Of a stretch of 61,605 nucleotides of DNA, positions 34,090 through 44,509 are shown in pieces. The DNA comes from Pyramidobacter sp. C12-8 (GTDB taxonomy: Bacteria; Synergistota; Synergistia; Synergistales; Dethiosulfovibrionaceae). The translations under genes and the position numbers were made by a program. The first letter of the stretch is position 1. Each line of letters opens with the position of its first letter. The stretch covers positions 1 through 61,605 of the forward strand of contig NZ_MUHX01000014.1 in the NCBI RefSeq assembly GCF_002007215.1. Direction: 5' to 3'. Below the pieces are notes generated by a model. The model had not been told where the DNA came from. It ran no database searches and worked only from the letters and a program-made list of their open reading frames with translations.

Positions 34090-34118
34090 AAGCCCCGTTT
34101 TATGCGGGGCTTATTTTT
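34090..34118 (+). terminator. Terminator of the TAXI transporter operon
   Basis: AAGCCCCG, 7-nt loop, CGGGGCTT, then ATTTTT. Confidence 0.88.
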
Positions 34119-34212
34119 CGTTCTCGGGGCATGGACATTGAAGCCGGCTTTAGGTAAGATATGCGGGAGTCTCGGCAGTCTTGCACAGCACATTGAAAGG
34201 AGTTCTCCATTT

Positions 34213-36372
34213 ATGGCCGATTATACAGGGCGTATCGCCCAGGAATTGAAACTTCCCGTCGGCGGCGTCTGCGCCGTCGCCGAACTTCTTGCGGAAGGAT
34301 GCACAGTCCCTTTCATCGCCCGCTATCGCAAAGAAAAAACCGGTTCCCTCGATGAAGTCGCGATCACCGCGATCCGCGACGGGCTGGCCCGAATCGAAGA
34401 ACTCGAAAAGCGGCGCGAGGCGATTCTGGGATCGCTGAGCGAGCGCGGCATCCTTACGGAAGAGCTGAAAAAGACGATCGACGCCGCTGCGACGATGACC
34501 GCTCTGGAAGACGCCTATCTCCCCTTCCGTCCCAAGCGCCGGACGCGCGCCCTGATCGCCCGTGAAGCGGGACTCCAGCCGCTGGCTGACGCCCTGCTGG
34601 AACAAAAGGGGCGCGCCCCGCAGGAACTGGCCGCAGACTATGTGAACGAGGAAAAAGGCGTCGCCGACGCCGAAGCCGCGCTGGCCGGCGCGCGCGACAT
34701 CATCGCCGAGAACGTCAGCGAAAATCCGGCAGTCCGCCAGGACATGCGCGTGATTTTTGTCCGCTTCGGCGTCTGCGTTTCCTCGGTCGTCGAAAAAAAG
34801 AAAGAGGAACCGGAAGCGGCGACGTACGCCGATTATTTCGACTGGAAAGAGCCGCTCCTGCGCGTCCCTTCCCATCGTCTGCTGGCGGTGATGCGCGGGG
34901 AAAAGGAGGGCTATCTCTCCTTCTCGGTCCGCCCCGAAGAAAAACTGGCGCTGGAAAAGCTTTACGCGCGTTACGTCACGGGAAGCGGCGAAGATTCCAA
35001 GCAAGTCGAAGCGGCCGTCACCGACGGCTATCGCCGCCTGCTGGCGCCTTCCATGGAAACGGAAGCCCGCAGCACTCTGAAAAAGCGCGCCGACGCCGAC
35101 GCCATCGCCATTTTCGCCCGCAATCTCCGCGAGTTGCTGATGGCTTCGCCTTTCGGCGCCCGCCCCATCATGGCCATCGATCCGGGGATCAGGACCGGGT
35201 GCAAAGTCGTCTGCCTCGATTCGAAAGGCGATCTGCTGCACCACACGGTCATTTTCATCCAGCGCTCCGACGCCCAGTACGCCCAGGCCGGCGAAACCAT
35301 CCGCGCGCTGGCCGCGCACTTCAAGCCCGATGCGGTCGCCGTCGGCAACGGCACGGCCAGCCGGGAAACGGAAGAGTTCCTGCGCGGCCTTGATCTGGAC
35401 ATCCCCATTATCGTCGTCAGCGAAAGCGGCGCTTCCGTCTATTCGGCTTCGGAACTGGCCCGCAAGGAATTCCCCGATCAGGACGTGACGGTCCGCGGCG
35501 CCGTTTCGATCGGGCGGCGTCTCATGGACCCGCTGGCGGAGCTCGTGAAGATCGATCCCAAGTCGATCGGCGTCGGGCAGTATCAACACGACGTCGATCA
35601 AAAGCAACTCAAAAACGCCCTGGACGACACCGTCGTCTCGTGCGTCAACGCCGTCGGCGTCGATCTGAACACCGCCAGCGCCAAACTGCTGTCCTACGTT
35701 TCCGGCCTGACGCCGTTGCTGGCAGAGAACGTCGTGAAATTCCGCGAAAACGAGGGAGCTTTCAAGCGGCGTCAGGACGTGCTGAAAGTTCCCCGTCTGG
35801 GCCCCAAAGCCTACCAGCAGGCCGCCGGCTTTTTGCGCATCCGCGACGCCGAGAATCCACTCGACGCCAGCGCCGTCCATCCCGAGAATTACGGCATCGT
35901 CGACGCCATCGCCGCGGATCAGAACTGCTCCGTCGCCGAGCTGATCGCCGCCAAAGACCTGCGCGGCAAGATCGACTTGAATCGCTACGTCACCGACGAG
36001 GTCGGCCTGCCGACGCTCGAGGACATTCTCTCCGAACTGGAAAAGCCCGGGCGCGACCCCCGCAGCGCGTTGGAAATCTTTTCCTTCGACCCCAACGTGC
36101 GCGAACTGACTGACCTCGAACCGGGCATGAAACTGCCGGGCATCGTCTCCAACGTCACGGCTTTCGGCGCGTTCGTCAACATCGGCGTGCATCAGGACGG
36201 GCTCGTCCACGTCAGCCAGATGGGGCGCTACGTGAAGGACATTTCCACCGTGCTTCATCCCGGCATGGCGGTGGAGGTCTACGTCATCGACGTGAACGTC
36301 AAGCGGCGCAGGATTTCCCTGCGCATGGAACTCGGCAAAAGAGCCGCCCGCGAAAAGAGCGCGGTCAAATAA
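34213..36372 (+). CDS. tex: Tex-family RNA-binding transcription accessory protein
   Basis: Nucleic-acid-binding protein (719 aa) of the Tex/Spt6-like family. Order: N-terminal helical region, YqgF RNase-H-like domain (MAIDPGIRTGCKVVCLD), helix-hairpin-helix region (SYVSGLTPLLAENVVKFRENEG), and a C-terminal S1 domain (GIVSNVTAFGAFVNIGVHQDGLVHVSQM). The ATG at 34213 follows AAAGGAG and begins MADYTGRIAQELKLP; an upstream open stretch from 34102 runs through the terminator and is not used. The gene is alone, with its own terminator. Confidence 0.96.
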   Translation: MADYTGRIAQELKLPVGGVCAVAELLAEGCTVPFIARYRKEKTGSLDEVAITAIRDGLARIEELEKRREAILGSLSERGILTEELKKTIDAAATMTALEDAYLPFRPKRRTRALIAREAGLQPLADALLEQKGRAPQELAADYVNEEKGVADAEAALAGARDIIAENVSENPAVRQDMRVIFVRFGVCVSSVVEKKKEEPEAATYADYFDWKEPLLRVPSHRLLAVMRGEKEGYLSFSVRPEEKLALEKLYARYVTGSGEDSKQVEAAVTDGYRRLLAPSMETEARSTLKKRADADAIAIFARNLRELLMASPFGARPIMAIDPGIRTGCKVVCLDSKGDLLHHTVIFIQRSDAQYAQAGETIRALAAHFKPDAVAVGNGTASRETEEFLRGLDLDIPIIVVSESGASVYSASELARKEFPDQDVTVRGAVSIGRRLMDPLAELVKIDPKSIGVGQYQHDVDQKQLKNALDDTVVSCVNAVGVDLNTASAKLLSYVSGLTPLLAENVVKFRENEGAFKRRQDVLKVPRLGPKAYQQAAGFLRIRDAENPLDASAVHPENYGIVDAIAADQNCSVAELIAAKDLRGKIDLNRYVTDEVGLPTLEDILSELEKPGRDPRSALEIFSFDPNVRELTDLEPGMKLPGIVSNVTAFGAFVNIGVHQDGLVHVSQMGRYVKDISTVLHPGMAVEVYVIDVNVKRRRISLRMELGKRAAREKSAVK

Positions 36373-39147: not shown

Positions 39148-41532
39148 ATGAGCACATTTGACGTTGTCGTTGTCGGCGGCGGTCCGGCCGGGATGATGGC
39201 GGCGGCCCGCGCCGCACAATACGGCGCCCGCACGGTTCTGCTCGAAAAGAACCGCGAGCTGGGGCGCAAATTGATGATCACCGGCCGGGGACGCTGCAAC
39301 TTTGCCCACGATCAGGAGGATCCGGAACTTTTATCGAAAGATTATCGCCGCGGCGGGAAATTTTTGCTGCCGGCGCTTCGCACGTTCGGCGCCAAGGAAA
39401 CCGCCGCGTTTTTTCTGCGCCGCGGCGTAGTGTCGACGCACGAACGCGGGCATCGCCTCTATCCCCGCGAGGGGCAGGACGCTTCGTCGGTCGTCAACGC
39501 GCTGTGGACCGCTCTGAAGGACGGCGGCGTCCAGGTGCTGCGCGGGATAGAAGTTCGCTCTCTCGACATTCTCGGCGGCACAGTCCGCCGCGTCACCACG
39601 GGACGCGAGGAAATCGAAGGGCGCGCCTTCATCCTCGCGACGGGGGGGCTATCTTTCCCCCACACGGGTTCCACCGGCGACGGCTACCGCTGGGCCCGCA
39701 AGGCCGGCCACGAGATCGTCGAGACGACGCCGGCGCTGTGCCCGATCAAGGTCGTGGAACGCTTCGACGATCGGCTGTCCGGTCTGAAGCTCAAAAACGT
39801 GCGCGTCACGGTCCGCCACAACGGCGAAACCGTGGACGAACGCTTCGGAGAGATGGATTTCACGCCGTTCGGCATTTCCGGCGCCATCGTCATGGACCTG
39901 GCCGCCGGCGTGGGGAACTGCCTGCGCCAGACGGGCCGCACGACCGTCCATATCGACCTCAAACCGGCGCTCGAGCCGGAACGTCTCGACGCGCGCATCG
40001 AACGCGATTTCCGGGAATTCGGCGGCGACGCGCTGCGCTTTGCGCTGAGAAAAATGCTGCCCGCGCAGATCATCCCCGAAGTGCTCAAAATGGCCAGGCT
40101 CGACATGGGGAAGCCCTGCGGCGAGACCACGGCCGACGAGCGGCTCGCGCTCAGGAACACGATCAAGGATTTCGTCGTCACGCCCACGGAACTTCTTGGG
40201 TTCAGGCACGCCATCGTCACCAGCGGCGGCGTGAGCACCGACGAGATCGAGCCGGAGACCATGGCCTCGAAGCTCGTCCCCAACCTCTACTTCGCCGGCG
40301 AGATGATCGACGTCGACGGGCCGACCGGCGGCTACAACCTTCAGGAATGCTGGAGCACCGGCTTCACCGCCGGGAGCGCGGCCGCCGAAGCGCTGGGGTT
40401 CAAAAAGCCCACCGACGAGGACATCGTCAGACAGATGGAAGCGGCGCGCAGCCACAGGTATGAAATCTCCAAAGCGGAGCGGCAGAAATTCAAGGAGGAG
40501 AAAACCGAAGACATGACGATCAAAACCGGCCCCACCGACGACAAAGAGTTTTGCGGCTGGAGAGACCCCCGCAGGCGGCAAACGTCCGAACAGACAAAGG
40601 GGGACGCCGGCGGCGGCGAATTCAGTTCCGGGAAGGACCGCCGGCCTTCTTTTGAGCGGCCTTCTTCCGAAGACCGTCACCGCGAGAGGCGTCCTTTCCG
40701 GCCTGCCGACCGTCCGGACCGTCCCCAAAAGACGTACCGGGAGGACAGAGATTTCGGGGAGCGCCGGGATTTCGCCGAACGCCCGCGTTTTTCGGAAGAG
40801 CGCCGCTCCTTCCGTCGGGACGAAGACCGCCCGTTCGAAAGAGAGCGGCGGCCGTTCGAAAACGATCGCGGCGAGCCGCGCTCGTTCCGACGCGCCGAGG
40901 GGCCGCACCGGGAATACCGCCACCAGCCCTACGACAGCTACGATAGGGGCAGCCGCGAGGGGTTTTCGGAATCGCGCCGCTTTCACGAAGCGGCGTCCGA
41001 AGAAAGATCCCGACGCCCGGAACGACGTCCCTTCGACCGCCCCGATTTCGGAGAGCGCGACGAACGCCGCGCCTTCGAACGGCCGAGCGGTCCGCGTCCG
41101 TTCCGAGAAAATTTCCGCGACAAAGAGCCCGAATATCAGAGACGTTCCGATTCGCCTTCGCAGAATCGGCGTCCGTACGATCAGGAGCGGCGTCCCCGTT
41201 TCTCCGACGCGCCCAGACGTCCCTATGCGCCTGACGACAGGGAACGCCGCGGATTCTACGAGCGCGGCTTCGGCAACGAACGAGTTTCGTACGCCGGTCG
41301 TTCGGAGCGTCCTTACGACAATCGCCGGAGCCATACCGACCGCGACTTTCATGCCGGACGCAATCCTCAGGAGCGCCCCTTTCGCGGCGCACGGCCGTTC
41401 GACGAAGACCGGATCCGGGAAAGGGATCTCCATCATGAAAGCAGACCGCCCCGCAACGAGCAGGGCGTTTCCAAACCGCGTCCGCGAAAATTCGCCAGTT
41501 TCTCCTGTTTCAGGAAAGACCGCGAACGATAA
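39148..41532 (+). CDS. BaiN/HI0933-type flavoprotein with long disordered Arg-rich tail
   Basis: 794-aa protein. Residues 1 to about 430 are a complete NAD(P)/FAD-dependent oxidoreductase of the HI0933/BaiN/YhiN family: FAD Rossmann motif VVVVGGGPAGMMAA, then GRKLMITGRGRCNF, ILATGGLSFPHTGSTGDGY, and the closing GEMIDVDGPTGGYNLQECWSTG. From about residue 450 to the end (40498-41532) the chain is an Arg/Asp/Glu/Pro/Phe-rich, hydrophobic-poor region in which RPF occurs about seven times and RPY about three (ERRPFEN, RRPYDQ, ERPYDN). Normal family members end near residue 400-420. The tail stays open with no frameshift and ends in its own stop. The ATG at 39148 has AAGGAG 8 bp upstream. It heads a plus-strand operon. 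Confidence 0.88.
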   Translation: MSTFDVVVVGGGPAGMMAAARAAQYGARTVLLEKNRELGRKLMITGRGRCNFAHDQEDPELLSKDYRRGGKFLLPALRTFGAKETAAFFLRRGVVSTHERGHRLYPREGQDASSVVNALWTALKDGGVQVLRGIEVRSLDILGGTVRRVTTGREEIEGRAFILATGGLSFPHTGSTGDGYRWARKAGHEIVETTPALCPIKVVERFDDRLSGLKLKNVRVTVRHNGETVDERFGEMDFTPFGISGAIVMDLAAGVGNCLRQTGRTTVHIDLKPALEPERLDARIERDFREFGGDALRFALRKMLPAQIIPEVLKMARLDMGKPCGETTADERLALRNTIKDFVVTPTELLGFRHAIVTSGGVSTDEIEPETMASKLVPNLYFAGEMIDVDGPTGGYNLQECWSTGFTAGSAAAEALGFKKPTDEDIVRQMEAARSHRYEISKAERQKFKEEKTEDMTIKTGPTDDKEFCGWRDPRRRQTSEQTKGDAGGGEFSSGKDRRPSFERPSSEDRHRERRPFRPADRPDRPQKTYREDRDFGERRDFAERPRFSEERRSFRRDEDRPFERERRPFENDRGEPRSFRRAEGPHREYRHQPYDSYDRGSREGFSESRRFHEAASEERSRRPERRPFDRPDFGERDERRAFERPSGPRPFRENFRDKEPEYQRRSDSPSQNRRPYDQERRPRFSDAPRRPYAPDDRERRGFYERGFGNERVSYAGRSERPYDNRRSHTDRDFHAGRNPQERPFRGARPFDEDRIRERDLHHESRPPRNEQGVSKPRPRKFASFSCFRKDRER

Positions 41533-41579
41533 AGCGAAAAACGCAATACCATCCATCTCTCAACAGGAAGGCCAGCCGT

Positions 41580-42575
41580 ATGCAGGAACAAATTGACACA
41601 AGCGCCGTCGATCCCATCCCTGACGAAGAAGCGTTCCGCCGGGCTCTCGCGCAGATCGAAACGTTCGGCAAGCAGATATTTCGAACCGCCGAACGCCAGA
41701 AAGACCTTCTGCTCAACGAAAAAGAGCAGAACGCCCGCGAAACGATTGTGCTCCGCAAGCGGCTCGACGAAAGGGAGAACGAACTGGAAACGCTCCGAAA
41801 AAATCTTATGGACGCTCAGATGGAGCTTTCCGAAGCGCGCCGCAGCGAAGCCTCGCTGAAGCTCGAAATAAAGCAGCTCAAGGAGCAGGTTTCCATTTAC
41901 CGCGTCGACGCCCGCCGCATCGAAGAAGCCGAAAGCCAGCTGCGGACCGCGAAAGAAGAAGCCGCTCACCTTCGCGCTCGCATCGAAGAGCTGAATACCG
42001 AAGCGGTCAGAGCCGTCCGCAAACACAAAACGGAAGTCGACGCGCTGACTCTGAAGTACGAGCAGGAGAAAGTGGCTCTGCACGAAAGCGTTCAGATCGC
42101 GGAAGACCGCGCCCGCAGCGCCGCCGAAACCGTCGCCAGGACCCAGTCCCTGGGCAGCATCGCCGAGCACGAAAAAAATGCGGCGCTGGAGGAACTGGCG
42201 CGCAGCAAACGCGAACAGAAACAGCAGCTGGAAAAGCTGCAGAACGATCTGGCCCGTCGCGAAGCGGCCGCTTCCGAACTGGAGCGCCGCTTTGCCGACC
42301 AGCAGCGCGAGTACGAGCGCAAGCTGTCGCTGATCCAGCTGCAAACGGGACAGCAGTATCAGTCGCAGATGGAAGCCCTGAAAAACGTTCTCGAAGACAA
42401 AGCGCACGAACTCAACCGCGCCCACTATCAGATCGAACAGCTCAACGACGATCACCGGCGCGCGCTCGAGGCCCTGAAACAGGATATGGAAAAGCAGCTT
42501 GAACTCCGCGCCGATGAAATCCGCCGCCGGCTCATCCTGAAATCCACGGGAAAAGACGGGCGTCCGTCGCCATGA
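41580..42575 (+). CDS. Coiled-coil protein of unknown function
   Basis: 331-aa, highly charged protein that is one almost continuous predicted coiled coil from about residue 15 to 310 (heptads such as LRKRLDERENELETLRKNL and RARIEELNTEAVRAVR). No signal peptide, membrane helix or enzymatic motif is seen. It starts 47 bp after the flavoprotein and its stop overlaps the start of the ABC-F gene by 4 bp (ATGA), so translation of the two is coupled and they probably act together. It resembles SMC-like or tropomyosin-like proteins only in composition; no family is claimed. Confidence 0.82.
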   Translation: MQEQIDTSAVDPIPDEEAFRRALAQIETFGKQIFRTAERQKDLLLNEKEQNARETIVLRKRLDERENELETLRKNLMDAQMELSEARRSEASLKLEIKQLKEQVSIYRVDARRIEEAESQLRTAKEEAAHLRARIEELNTEAVRAVRKHKTEVDALTLKYEQEKVALHESVQIAEDRARSAAETVARTQSLGSIAEHEKNAALEELARSKREQKQQLEKLQNDLARREAAASELERRFADQQREYERKLSLIQLQTGQQYQSQMEALKNVLEDKAHELNRAHYQIEQLNDDHRRALEALKQDMEKQLELRADEIRRRLILKSTGKDGRPSP

Positions 42576-44509
42576 TACAGATCAGAGACCTCAATCTGAC
42601 CTTTGCCGGAGGCCGGAAAATTTTCGATGGCCTGAACTGGCAGATCGACACCGGAAGCCGGACGGGACTCGTCGGCCCCAACGGCGTCGGCAAAACCACG
42701 CTGCTGCGCGCCATGGTCGGGCAAGTGACCGCCGACAGCGGCGGCATCGCCGTCTCCCCTCTTTCCGCAACAGTCGGTTACCTGCCCCAGGATCTGGCGG
42801 AGCTTCCCGACGTCACGCTGATGCAGTACCTCAAAGACCGTACCGGCATTACGGCGGCGGAGAAACGGCTCAAACGATGTTCCGAAGAGCTCGCCGCCGC
42901 GCCTGAAAGCGAACATGTCCGTCTGATGAAGCTCCACGATGAAGCGGCCGCCGCCTATGAAAACCTCGGCGGCTATTCTTTTGAAGCGCTGTCGCGCAAG
43001 GCGCTGCACGGGCTGGGGTTTCATGATGGCGACGACGCCAGGCCCTGCGGCGAGTTCTCAGGCGGCTGGAAGATGCGCGTCACGCTGGCCGGGCTGCTGT
43101 TGTCGCGCCCCGACATCCTGCTCCTCGACGAACCGACCAACCACCTCGACACGGAAAGCATGGAATGGCTGGAAAACTGGCTTTCCAACTATCGCGGCAC
43201 GCTCGTGGCCATTTCCCATGACCGCGTCTTTATGGACAAGGTCATGAAAAGCATCGCCGAGCTCCATTCCGGCAGGATCCGCGTTTACAAGGGCAACTTC
43301 TCCGATTATCTGCGCGCCTCGGAAGAGCGGAAAGCCCAGCTCGAGCAGGCCGCCGCCCGCCAAAAAGAGGAGATCGCCAGAACGAAAGAATTCATCGAAC
43401 GCTTCCGCTACAAAGCCACAAAGGCCGCGCAGGTGCAAAGCCGCGTCAAGACGCTTGAAAAGATCCAGATCATCCGGACGGAGACGGCGGCCCGTCGCGT
43501 GACGCTGAAATTTCCGCCCTGCCCGCCCAGCGGGCATATCGTCCTGACGCTGACCGATCTCGGCATGGCCTACGGAACGCGCCGCGTCTTTGAGCGCCTC
43601 AACGCGACCGTCGAACGAGGGCAGAAAATCGCCCTCGTCGGCGCGAACGGCGCCGGCAAATCCACGCTTTCGCGCCTCATTTCAGGCAAAGAGCGCCCCA
43701 CTTCCGGAAGCTGCGAAACCGGCTACCACGTGCTGCCCGCGTTTTTCTCGCAGGAGAGCGCCGAAAATCTGAACTACGACCGCACCGTCTGGCAGGAAAT
43801 TTATCCGCTCAACATGGATATGTCCGAGGCGGAAAAACGCGCTCTGCTCGGCTCGTTCCTGTTCAGCGGCGACGACATTCACAAGCCCGTCAACGTGCTT
43901 TCCGGCGGCGAGAAGTCGCGCCTTTCCCTCGTCAAGATCCTCATGAACCCGTCGAACTTCCTGATCCTCGACGAACCGACCAACCACCTCGACATGATCA
44001 CGCGGGAGCTTTTTCAGCAGGCTCTGCTCGCCTACGACGGCACGCTGCTGATCGTCTCGCACGACCGCTATTTCCTGAACCAGCTCGCGCAGCGCGTTTG
44101 GGAACTGCGCGACGGAGCCCTGTACGACTACGCCGGCAACTACAGCCGTTTCATCGAGCAGCGCCAGGCGTCGCTCGCGCAAGATGCTCCTCACGCCGGC
44201 CCCGATGTGAAACGCCGCGGCGGCGAACGCGACCAAAAGCGCGAAGAAGCGCAGCGGCGCAACGAAATCTACCGCCGTAAAAAAGTTTACGCGGACGAAC
44301 TCGCCGCGCTGGAAGAGCGCATCGACGGCCTGGAAAAGCGCAAAAAGGAGGACGAACGAGAGCTCTGCCGGCCGGAAGTGCTGTTGGATTCCGTCAGAGT
44401 CCAGGCCCTCATGAAAGACCTTGCGGACGCCGGCGCGGAACTCGAGGCCGCGACGAGCCGCTGGGAAGAACTGATGGAAATCATCGAAAAAATAGAAAAG
44501 GGAGAATGA
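42572..44509 (+). CDS. ABC-F family ATPase (Uup/YdiF-like)
   Basis: Soluble twin-ATPase (645 aa) of the ABC-F class, which binds ribosomes at the E-site. First cassette: GPNGVGKTT, FSGGWKMRV, ILLLDEPTNHLD. Second cassette: GANGAGKST, LSGGEKSRL, LILDEPTNHLD. The linker between them (about residues 245-310, ARQKEEIARTKEFIERFRYKATKAAQVQSR) is the P-site tRNA-interaction motif region. A C-terminal coiled coil (about 560-640) is like that of Uup or YdiF. No membrane partner. Whether it is a translation factor or an antibiotic-protection protein cannot be told, but the housekeeping neighbours favour the former. Confidence 0.93.
   Translation: MIQIRDLNLTFAGGRKIFDGLNWQIDTGSRTGLVGPNGVGKTTLLRAMVGQVTADSGGIAVSPLSATVGYLPQDLAELPDVTLMQYLKDRTGITAAEKRLKRCSEELAAAPESEHVRLMKLHDEAAAAYENLGGYSFEALSRKALHGLGFHDGDDARPCGEFSGGWKMRVTLAGLLLSRPDILLLDEPTNHLDTESMEWLENWLSNYRGTLVAISHDRVFMDKVMKSIAELHSGRIRVYKGNFSDYLRASEERKAQLEQAAARQKEEIARTKEFIERFRYKATKAAQVQSRVKTLEKIQIIRTETAARRVTLKFPPCPPSGHIVLTLTDLGMAYGTRRVFERLNATVERGQKIALVGANGAGKSTLSRLISGKERPTSGSCETGYHVLPAFFSQESAENLNYDRTVWQEIYPLNMDMSEAEKRALLGSFLFSGDDIHKPVNVLSGGEKSRLSLVKILMNPSNFLILDEPTNHLDMITRELFQQALLAYDGTLLIVSHDRYFLNQLAQRVWELRDGALYDYAGNYSRFIEQRQASLAQDAPHAGPDVKRRGGERDQKREEAQRRNEIYRRKKVYADELAALEERIDGLEKRKKEDERELCRPEVLLDSVRVQALMKDLADAGAELEAATSRWEELMEIIEKIEKGE

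Follow-up and report, generated by a model that had tools for sequence, protein, structure and literature searches.

The flavoprotein gene in the window (the whole 61,605 nt stretch of Pyramidobacter DNA that was analysed) encodes a complete HI0933/TIGR00275 flavoprotein, an FAD-dependent reductase, which runs on, in the same frame, into a long arginine-rich tail, and this tail is kept by purifying selection in this frame, with Arg, Phe and charge held while the spacer residues drift. Judged from the sequences compared, the tail is stable and was acquired by the flavoenzyme in the genus Pyramidobacter. This suggests that the tail may keep the flavoenzyme attached to RNA or inside a droplet rich in RNA. 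The gene occupies positions 39148-41532 of the forward strand as one uninterrupted frame of 794 residues, starting with an ATG at 39148, which is preceded at a distance of 8 nt by an AAGGAG-type ribosome site, and ending with the stop codon at 41530-41532 (Table 1).

Table 1 Segments of the flavoprotein gene and its neighbours, with positions in the window.
Feature	Residues	Position	Strand	Basis or context
Tex-type S1-domain RNA-binding protein		34102..36372	+	upstream of flavoprotein
Complete HI0933/TIGR00275 FAD flavoprotein (Rossmann + barrel/H2TH insert)	1-414	39148..40389	+	profile matches
Charged helical linker prolonging the last helix	415-453	40390..40506	+	genus conservation; AlphaFold helix
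Conserved short motif EDMTI[KQ]TGPTDD[KR]EFCGWRDPR	454-475	40507..40572	+	near-invariance across Pyramidobacter
Arginine-enriched mixed-charge tail, predicted to be disordered, containing RPF/RPY/RDF motifs	476-794	40573..41529	+	composition, conservation, charge mixing
Coiled-coil protein	 	41580..42575	+	downstream of flavoprotein, probably same operon (47 bp gap)
ABC-F ATPase, ribosome-acting type		42572..44509	+	NF000355, 430.7 bits (cut-off 380)

In the NCBIfam profile search, TIGR00275 matched residues 6-409 with 395.9 bits, well above the curated cut-off of 183.8 for full-length members, and the Pfam HI0933 domains span residues 5-410 (PF03486, 266 bits; PF22780, 97.9 bits). Since the full TIGR00275 profile and both Pfam domains are present, the flavoprotein body is complete and the last 380 residues are an extension, just as an earlier sequence-only reading had described it, i.e., as a complete flavoprotein domain fused in one frame to a long tail. 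The features for FAD binding are in place, with an N-terminal GGGPAG Rossmann motif and with GRGRCN and GEMIDVDGPTGGYN blocks that align with relatives and PDB chains. The nearest solved structure to the body is 2i0z, by sequence as well as by fold. Residues 1-478 were modelled with AlphaFold (mean pLDDT 67.6, based on a shallow alignment of five sequences); the model gave its best fold matches with 2i0z, 4cnj, 3v76 and 2gqf and predicted, with moderate confidence, a helix at residues 423-452 of the linker, which is longer in two of the congeners (G002 and G004). For residues 476-794, neither Pfam nor NCBIfam returned a match. A 635-residue open frame on the opposite strand (39649-41556, −) overlaps the flavoprotein gene and probably exists only as a consequence of its GC-rich codons.

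The tail consists of 25.7% Arg, 2.2% Lys, 21.6% Asp+Glu, 10.3% Pro, 8.2% Phe and 3.1% Tyr. The statement that it is made almost purely of Arg, Asp, Glu, Pro, Phe and Tyr was right about their dominance (69% together) but overstated, with Ser at 8.5% and Gly at 6%; the very few aliphatic residues, in turn, were seen correctly (Ile, Leu, Val and Met amount to 1.3%), and so was the roughly tenfold repetition of RPF/RPY, for RP[FY] occurs 10 times against a mean of 0.96 in shuffled tails, a number reached in 0 of 2000 shuffles. The interval proposed for the tail, 40498-41532, does contain the long Arg/aromatic stretch, but it begins at residue 451, within the linker, and the compositional tail proper comprises residues 476-794. 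The aromatic residues are spaced more evenly than in shuffles (P 0.003), which, together with the retention of Arg and Phe described below, upholds the sticker pattern of regularly spaced Arg and aromatic residues. Charge segregation was below that of all 1000 shuffles, meaning that the charges are far better mixed than by chance, and the net charge is +0.06 per residue; with its charges nearly balanced, the tail is therefore not a simple cationic RNA-binding tail. RGG is absent from it, which sets it apart from RGG-type RNA-binding domains, and it has the hallmarks of an arginine-enriched mixed-charge domain, namely, high Arg, Arg far in excess of Lys, acidic balance and good mixing. By the charge-hydropathy rule, residues 476-794 are predicted to be disordered. 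Taken together, the near-neutral mixture of Arg and acidic residues and the regular Phe/Tyr are closer to what a mixed-charge sticker domain would show than to a purely cationic tail for RNA binding, as far as can be judged from the pattern; being nearly neutral, free of RGG and without a family match, the tail does not allow RNA binding to be read from its sequence. In a six-frame scan of the window, this type of composition was found here only, a search with the tail in its own genome had the tail itself as sole match, and a DNA pattern search for similar tails in the genome, an insensitive method, gave no excess over the control. The codon usage of the tail (40573-41529) is unlike that of the body (GC3 of 0.67 vs. 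0.83), with many more CGT, CGA, CGG, AGA and AGG codons for Arg, and looks as if repeats had diversified at the DNA level; no recent tandem array was found in the window's own tail.

The same intact frame is present in G140, which is near-complete and belongs to the same species (contig of 2.78 Mb), and in congeners, which ruled out an assembly error or a hidden stop. The sequence-only reading had named a stop or frameshift behind the flavoprotein domain and the lack of tails in all close relatives as what would refute it, and both checks came out in its favour: no interruption was found, and the long tail is present in 6/6 Pyramidobacter genomes, G140 included (in two of them it is cut by contig ends). 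A shorter, basic tail of ~112 residues exists in a member of the sister genus (G006). The TIGR00275 family was detected in 91 of 188 Synergistota genomes, nearly always as a single copy, and the tail is absent from the family members in these 91 genomes outside Pyramidobacter and G006; the long frames noticed in six Synergistota genomes (G075, G076, G081, G120, G123 and G126) were upstream frame extensions lacking a tail. Of 299 Bacillota genomes surveyed, 217 possess the family, and no tail-length frame was evident among the ~150 matches listed, whose frames have 405-498 residues apart from a single one of 565. The absence of the tail outside the genus marks it as a lineage-specific addition, and, because most family members are tail-less, the core reaction must be able to proceed without it.

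The reading that we tentatively favour, at somewhat less than even confidence, is that of an RNA-acting flavoreductase whose genus-specific tail serves as an RNA sticker module raising the enzyme level on rRNA, possibly in a condensate. The FAD-dependent HI0933/TIGR00275 reductase would most likely reduce uridine in RNA, by analogy with RdsA acting at position 2449 of the 23S rRNA (see below), and the Pyramidobacter enzyme has gained a C-terminal module composed of a helical linker, a 22-residue motif and a 320-residue tail. Through Arg-aromatic and Arg-acidic contacts, the tail could function as a multivalent sticker of low specificity for RNA and for other tails; these stickers may concentrate the enzyme locally on rRNA that is being made or assembled, perhaps within a condensate, with the fixed motif docking on the catalytic domain or on a partner. 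If the tail binds RNA, it would represent a natural addition of a putatively disordered mixed-charge module to a bacterial RNA-modifying redox enzyme, and the tail-less sister proteins provide built-in controls. Eukaryotic nuclear-speckle proteins contain arginine-enriched mixed-charge domains in which Arg is preferred to Lys and alternates with Asp/Glu. The tail shares with these domains the high Arg over Lys, the alternation of Arg and acidic residues, the near-neutrality and the good mixing of charges; it differs in its bacterial origin, in its abundance of Pro and Phe and in being joined to a redox enzyme. We consider it doubtful that the tail is a bacterial counterpart of the arginine-rich speckle domain, attached to an RNA-reducing flavoenzyme, with uridine reduction taking place inside a tail-built, RNA-rich condensate tuned by EDMTIxTGPTDDxEFCGWRDPR. 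Among bacteria, Bacteroides Rho condenses in an RNA-dependent manner through a disordered region that contains short, conserved, charged motifs (PMC13269538). The tail, which is predicted to be disordered and belongs to a probably RNA-acting bacterial protein with a short conserved motif, resembles this region, whereas the Rho region is rich in Lys/Glu and unrelated in sequence, and condensation is experimental there, while we infer it for the Pyramidobacter tail.

The motif preceding the tail (EDMTIKTGPTDDKEFCGWRDPR at residues 454-475 of the protein studied here) is nearly invariant in all Pyramidobacter while the flanks on both sides diverge, and no convincing match to it was found elsewhere in 21 related genomes. 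This motif is the most constrained part of the extension, and its shortness and its Trp and Cys residues, as often seen in docking peptides, favour another explanation, in which the tail is a protein-protein scaffold: the motif and the mixed-charge stretch would recruit the enzyme to itself or to a partner such as the coiled-coil or the ABC-F protein, and RNA would not be the main ligand. The near-neutral net charge and the alternation of Arg with Asp/Glu are in line with such a scaffold, as is the coiled-coil gene, which is kept beside the flavoprotein gene in Pyramidobacter and G006. However, the strong preference for Arg over Lys, in dense combination with Phe, is a pattern best known from RNA-rich assemblies, and the enzyme family contains an rRNA modifier; we regard a scaffold in which RNA plays a minor part as rather unlikely. 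The ABC-F gene overlaps the coiled-coil gene by 4 bp and stays near the flavoprotein gene across the family. On the other side, the Tex-type S1 gene is located just upstream of the flavoprotein gene in most of the Synergistota loci examined (the window, L062, L064, L067-L069, L071 and L076) and is directly adjacent to it in some families. The links of the Tex-type and ABC-F genes to RNA and the ribosome agree with an RNA substrate, though as circumstantial evidence only.

We further compared dN/dS and identity among four Pyramidobacter genomes. The dN/dS ratio was about 0.1 for the body, 0.01-0.23 for residues 415-475 and 0.30-0.47 for the tail, and all indels were multiples of three, which together ruled out a spurious readthrough into non-coding DNA. 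Within the tail, 80% of the Arg and 71% of the Phe positions were identical in all four genomes, compared with 32% for Ser, 26% for Gly and 27% for Ala (Fisher P of 1.5e-8 for Arg and 0.001 for Phe). Arg was thus retained far better than Gly and Ala, even though most Arg codons have the same degeneracy as the codons of these two residues. A neutral simulation with the observed substitutions led to an expectation of 15-18 residues that are aliphatic or Cys, whereas the aligned tail has 3-6 of them, and it also predicted fewer tail Arg than observed. Charge mixing exceeded that of shuffles in every Pyramidobacter tail (P of 0.005 or less), and the last 19 residues of the tail are conserved. In two other Pyramidobacter MAGs, the tail is a tandem array, of 69-bp units in one (L039 3019-3330) and of 48-bp units in the other (L040 4395-4663), so that tails alike in composition are built from unlike units. 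These arrays also speak for a rival reading, a repeat-expansion tail of low consequence, in which duplication of a short Arg/Asp/Phe unit lengthened the C terminus and selection acted only for solubility and disorder, and the dN/dS of the tail, which exceeds that of the body three- to fourfold, its variable length and its absence outside the genus agree with this scenario. What makes it unlikely in our view is the specific retention of Arg and Phe and the exclusion of aliphatic residues relative to the neutral simulation, as well as the occurrence of the tail in all members and the conservation of both the motif and the last 19 residues.

Regarding the flavoenzyme itself, analogy at the level of the family makes RNA the more likely substrate. 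We take RdsA to be the product of yhiN, an identification that reportedly goes back to Toubdji 2024. In E. coli, RdsA is the dihydrouridine synthase for D2449 of the 23S rRNA (PMC12501074). E. coli YhiN itself exceeds the TIGR00275 cut-off and is 29% identical to the Pyramidobacter protein over its full length. With YhiN/RdsA in the same fold family, RNA is a plausible substrate and not an odd tether, and the sequence-only reading, which had called a redox enzyme tethered to RNA a new kind of bacterial protein, overlooked this relative. The two proteins share the TIGR00275 family, the fold and the use of FAD, and the U2449 context GGATAACAGGCTGAT, which is near universal and hence weak evidence, is present in the 23S rRNA of G140 (4 copies), G001, G003 and G006; a search of the draft assembly to which the window belongs did not find it, and that part of the 23S rRNA may be missing there. 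They differ in that YhiN (400 aa) is tail-less, is of low identity and is separated by a deep split: in our tree, which is small and has a chosen root, YhiN, HI0933 and 9x7q are parted with 100/100 support from the clade in which the Pyramidobacter protein groups with 2i0z (B. cereus) and 4cnj, and the tree thus does not make it an ortholog of YhiN. The structures 2i0z and 4cnj, the closest ones and on the same side of the tree, stop at the catalytic domain and are without linker, motif and tail.

The 23S rRNA of B. subtilis carries DHU2478 at the position that corresponds to 2449 of E. coli (PMC11317155), and a TIGR00275 member is encoded by B. subtilis, which served as a control in our genome survey. 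In S. aureus, too, D occurs at the position equivalent to 2449, and its enzyme is listed as unknown (PMC11190147). By analogy, the half of the family to which the Pyramidobacter protein belongs may therefore well catalyse this reaction. The 2i0z/YtfP-like half of TIGR00275 may thus be considered a candidate D2449 synthase in Gram-positive and other bacteria. We find it quite improbable that the protein is instead a small-molecule oxidase resembling aminoacetone oxidase, as which the Streptococcus protein 4cnj is described, with the tail localising a metabolic reaction. Its closest solved relatives are indeed 2i0z and 4cnj, and the NCBIfam model TIGR00275 bears the name aminoacetone oxidase, but the same model covers YhiN, a ribosomal dihydrouridine synthase, and B. 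subtilis combines a member with D at the 2449 equivalent; the Arg/Phe tail and the RNA-linked neighbour genes likewise argue against such an activity.

An in-frame ATG at position 40513 (codon 456) follows AAGGAGGAG and a 12-nt spacer and is kept in all Pyramidobacter. That it is an internal start yielding a second product, a free tail protein of 339 residues with the N terminus MTIKTGPTDD, is very improbable, for although the ATG is kept after a GGAG-type sequence even where the encoded residues differ, Glu-rich coding often gives GAGGAG by chance, efficient initiation usually needs a spacer shorter than 12 nt, and synonymous sites in the region of residues 415-475 show no slowing (dS up to 0.56). 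Elsewhere in the same genome, a DbpA-type DEAD-box helicase (L043 292-2253, −) has a short Arg/aromatic-rich C-terminal tail, GGPRRERRFDRSGERLGKRNFERASERRPRYGRDA.
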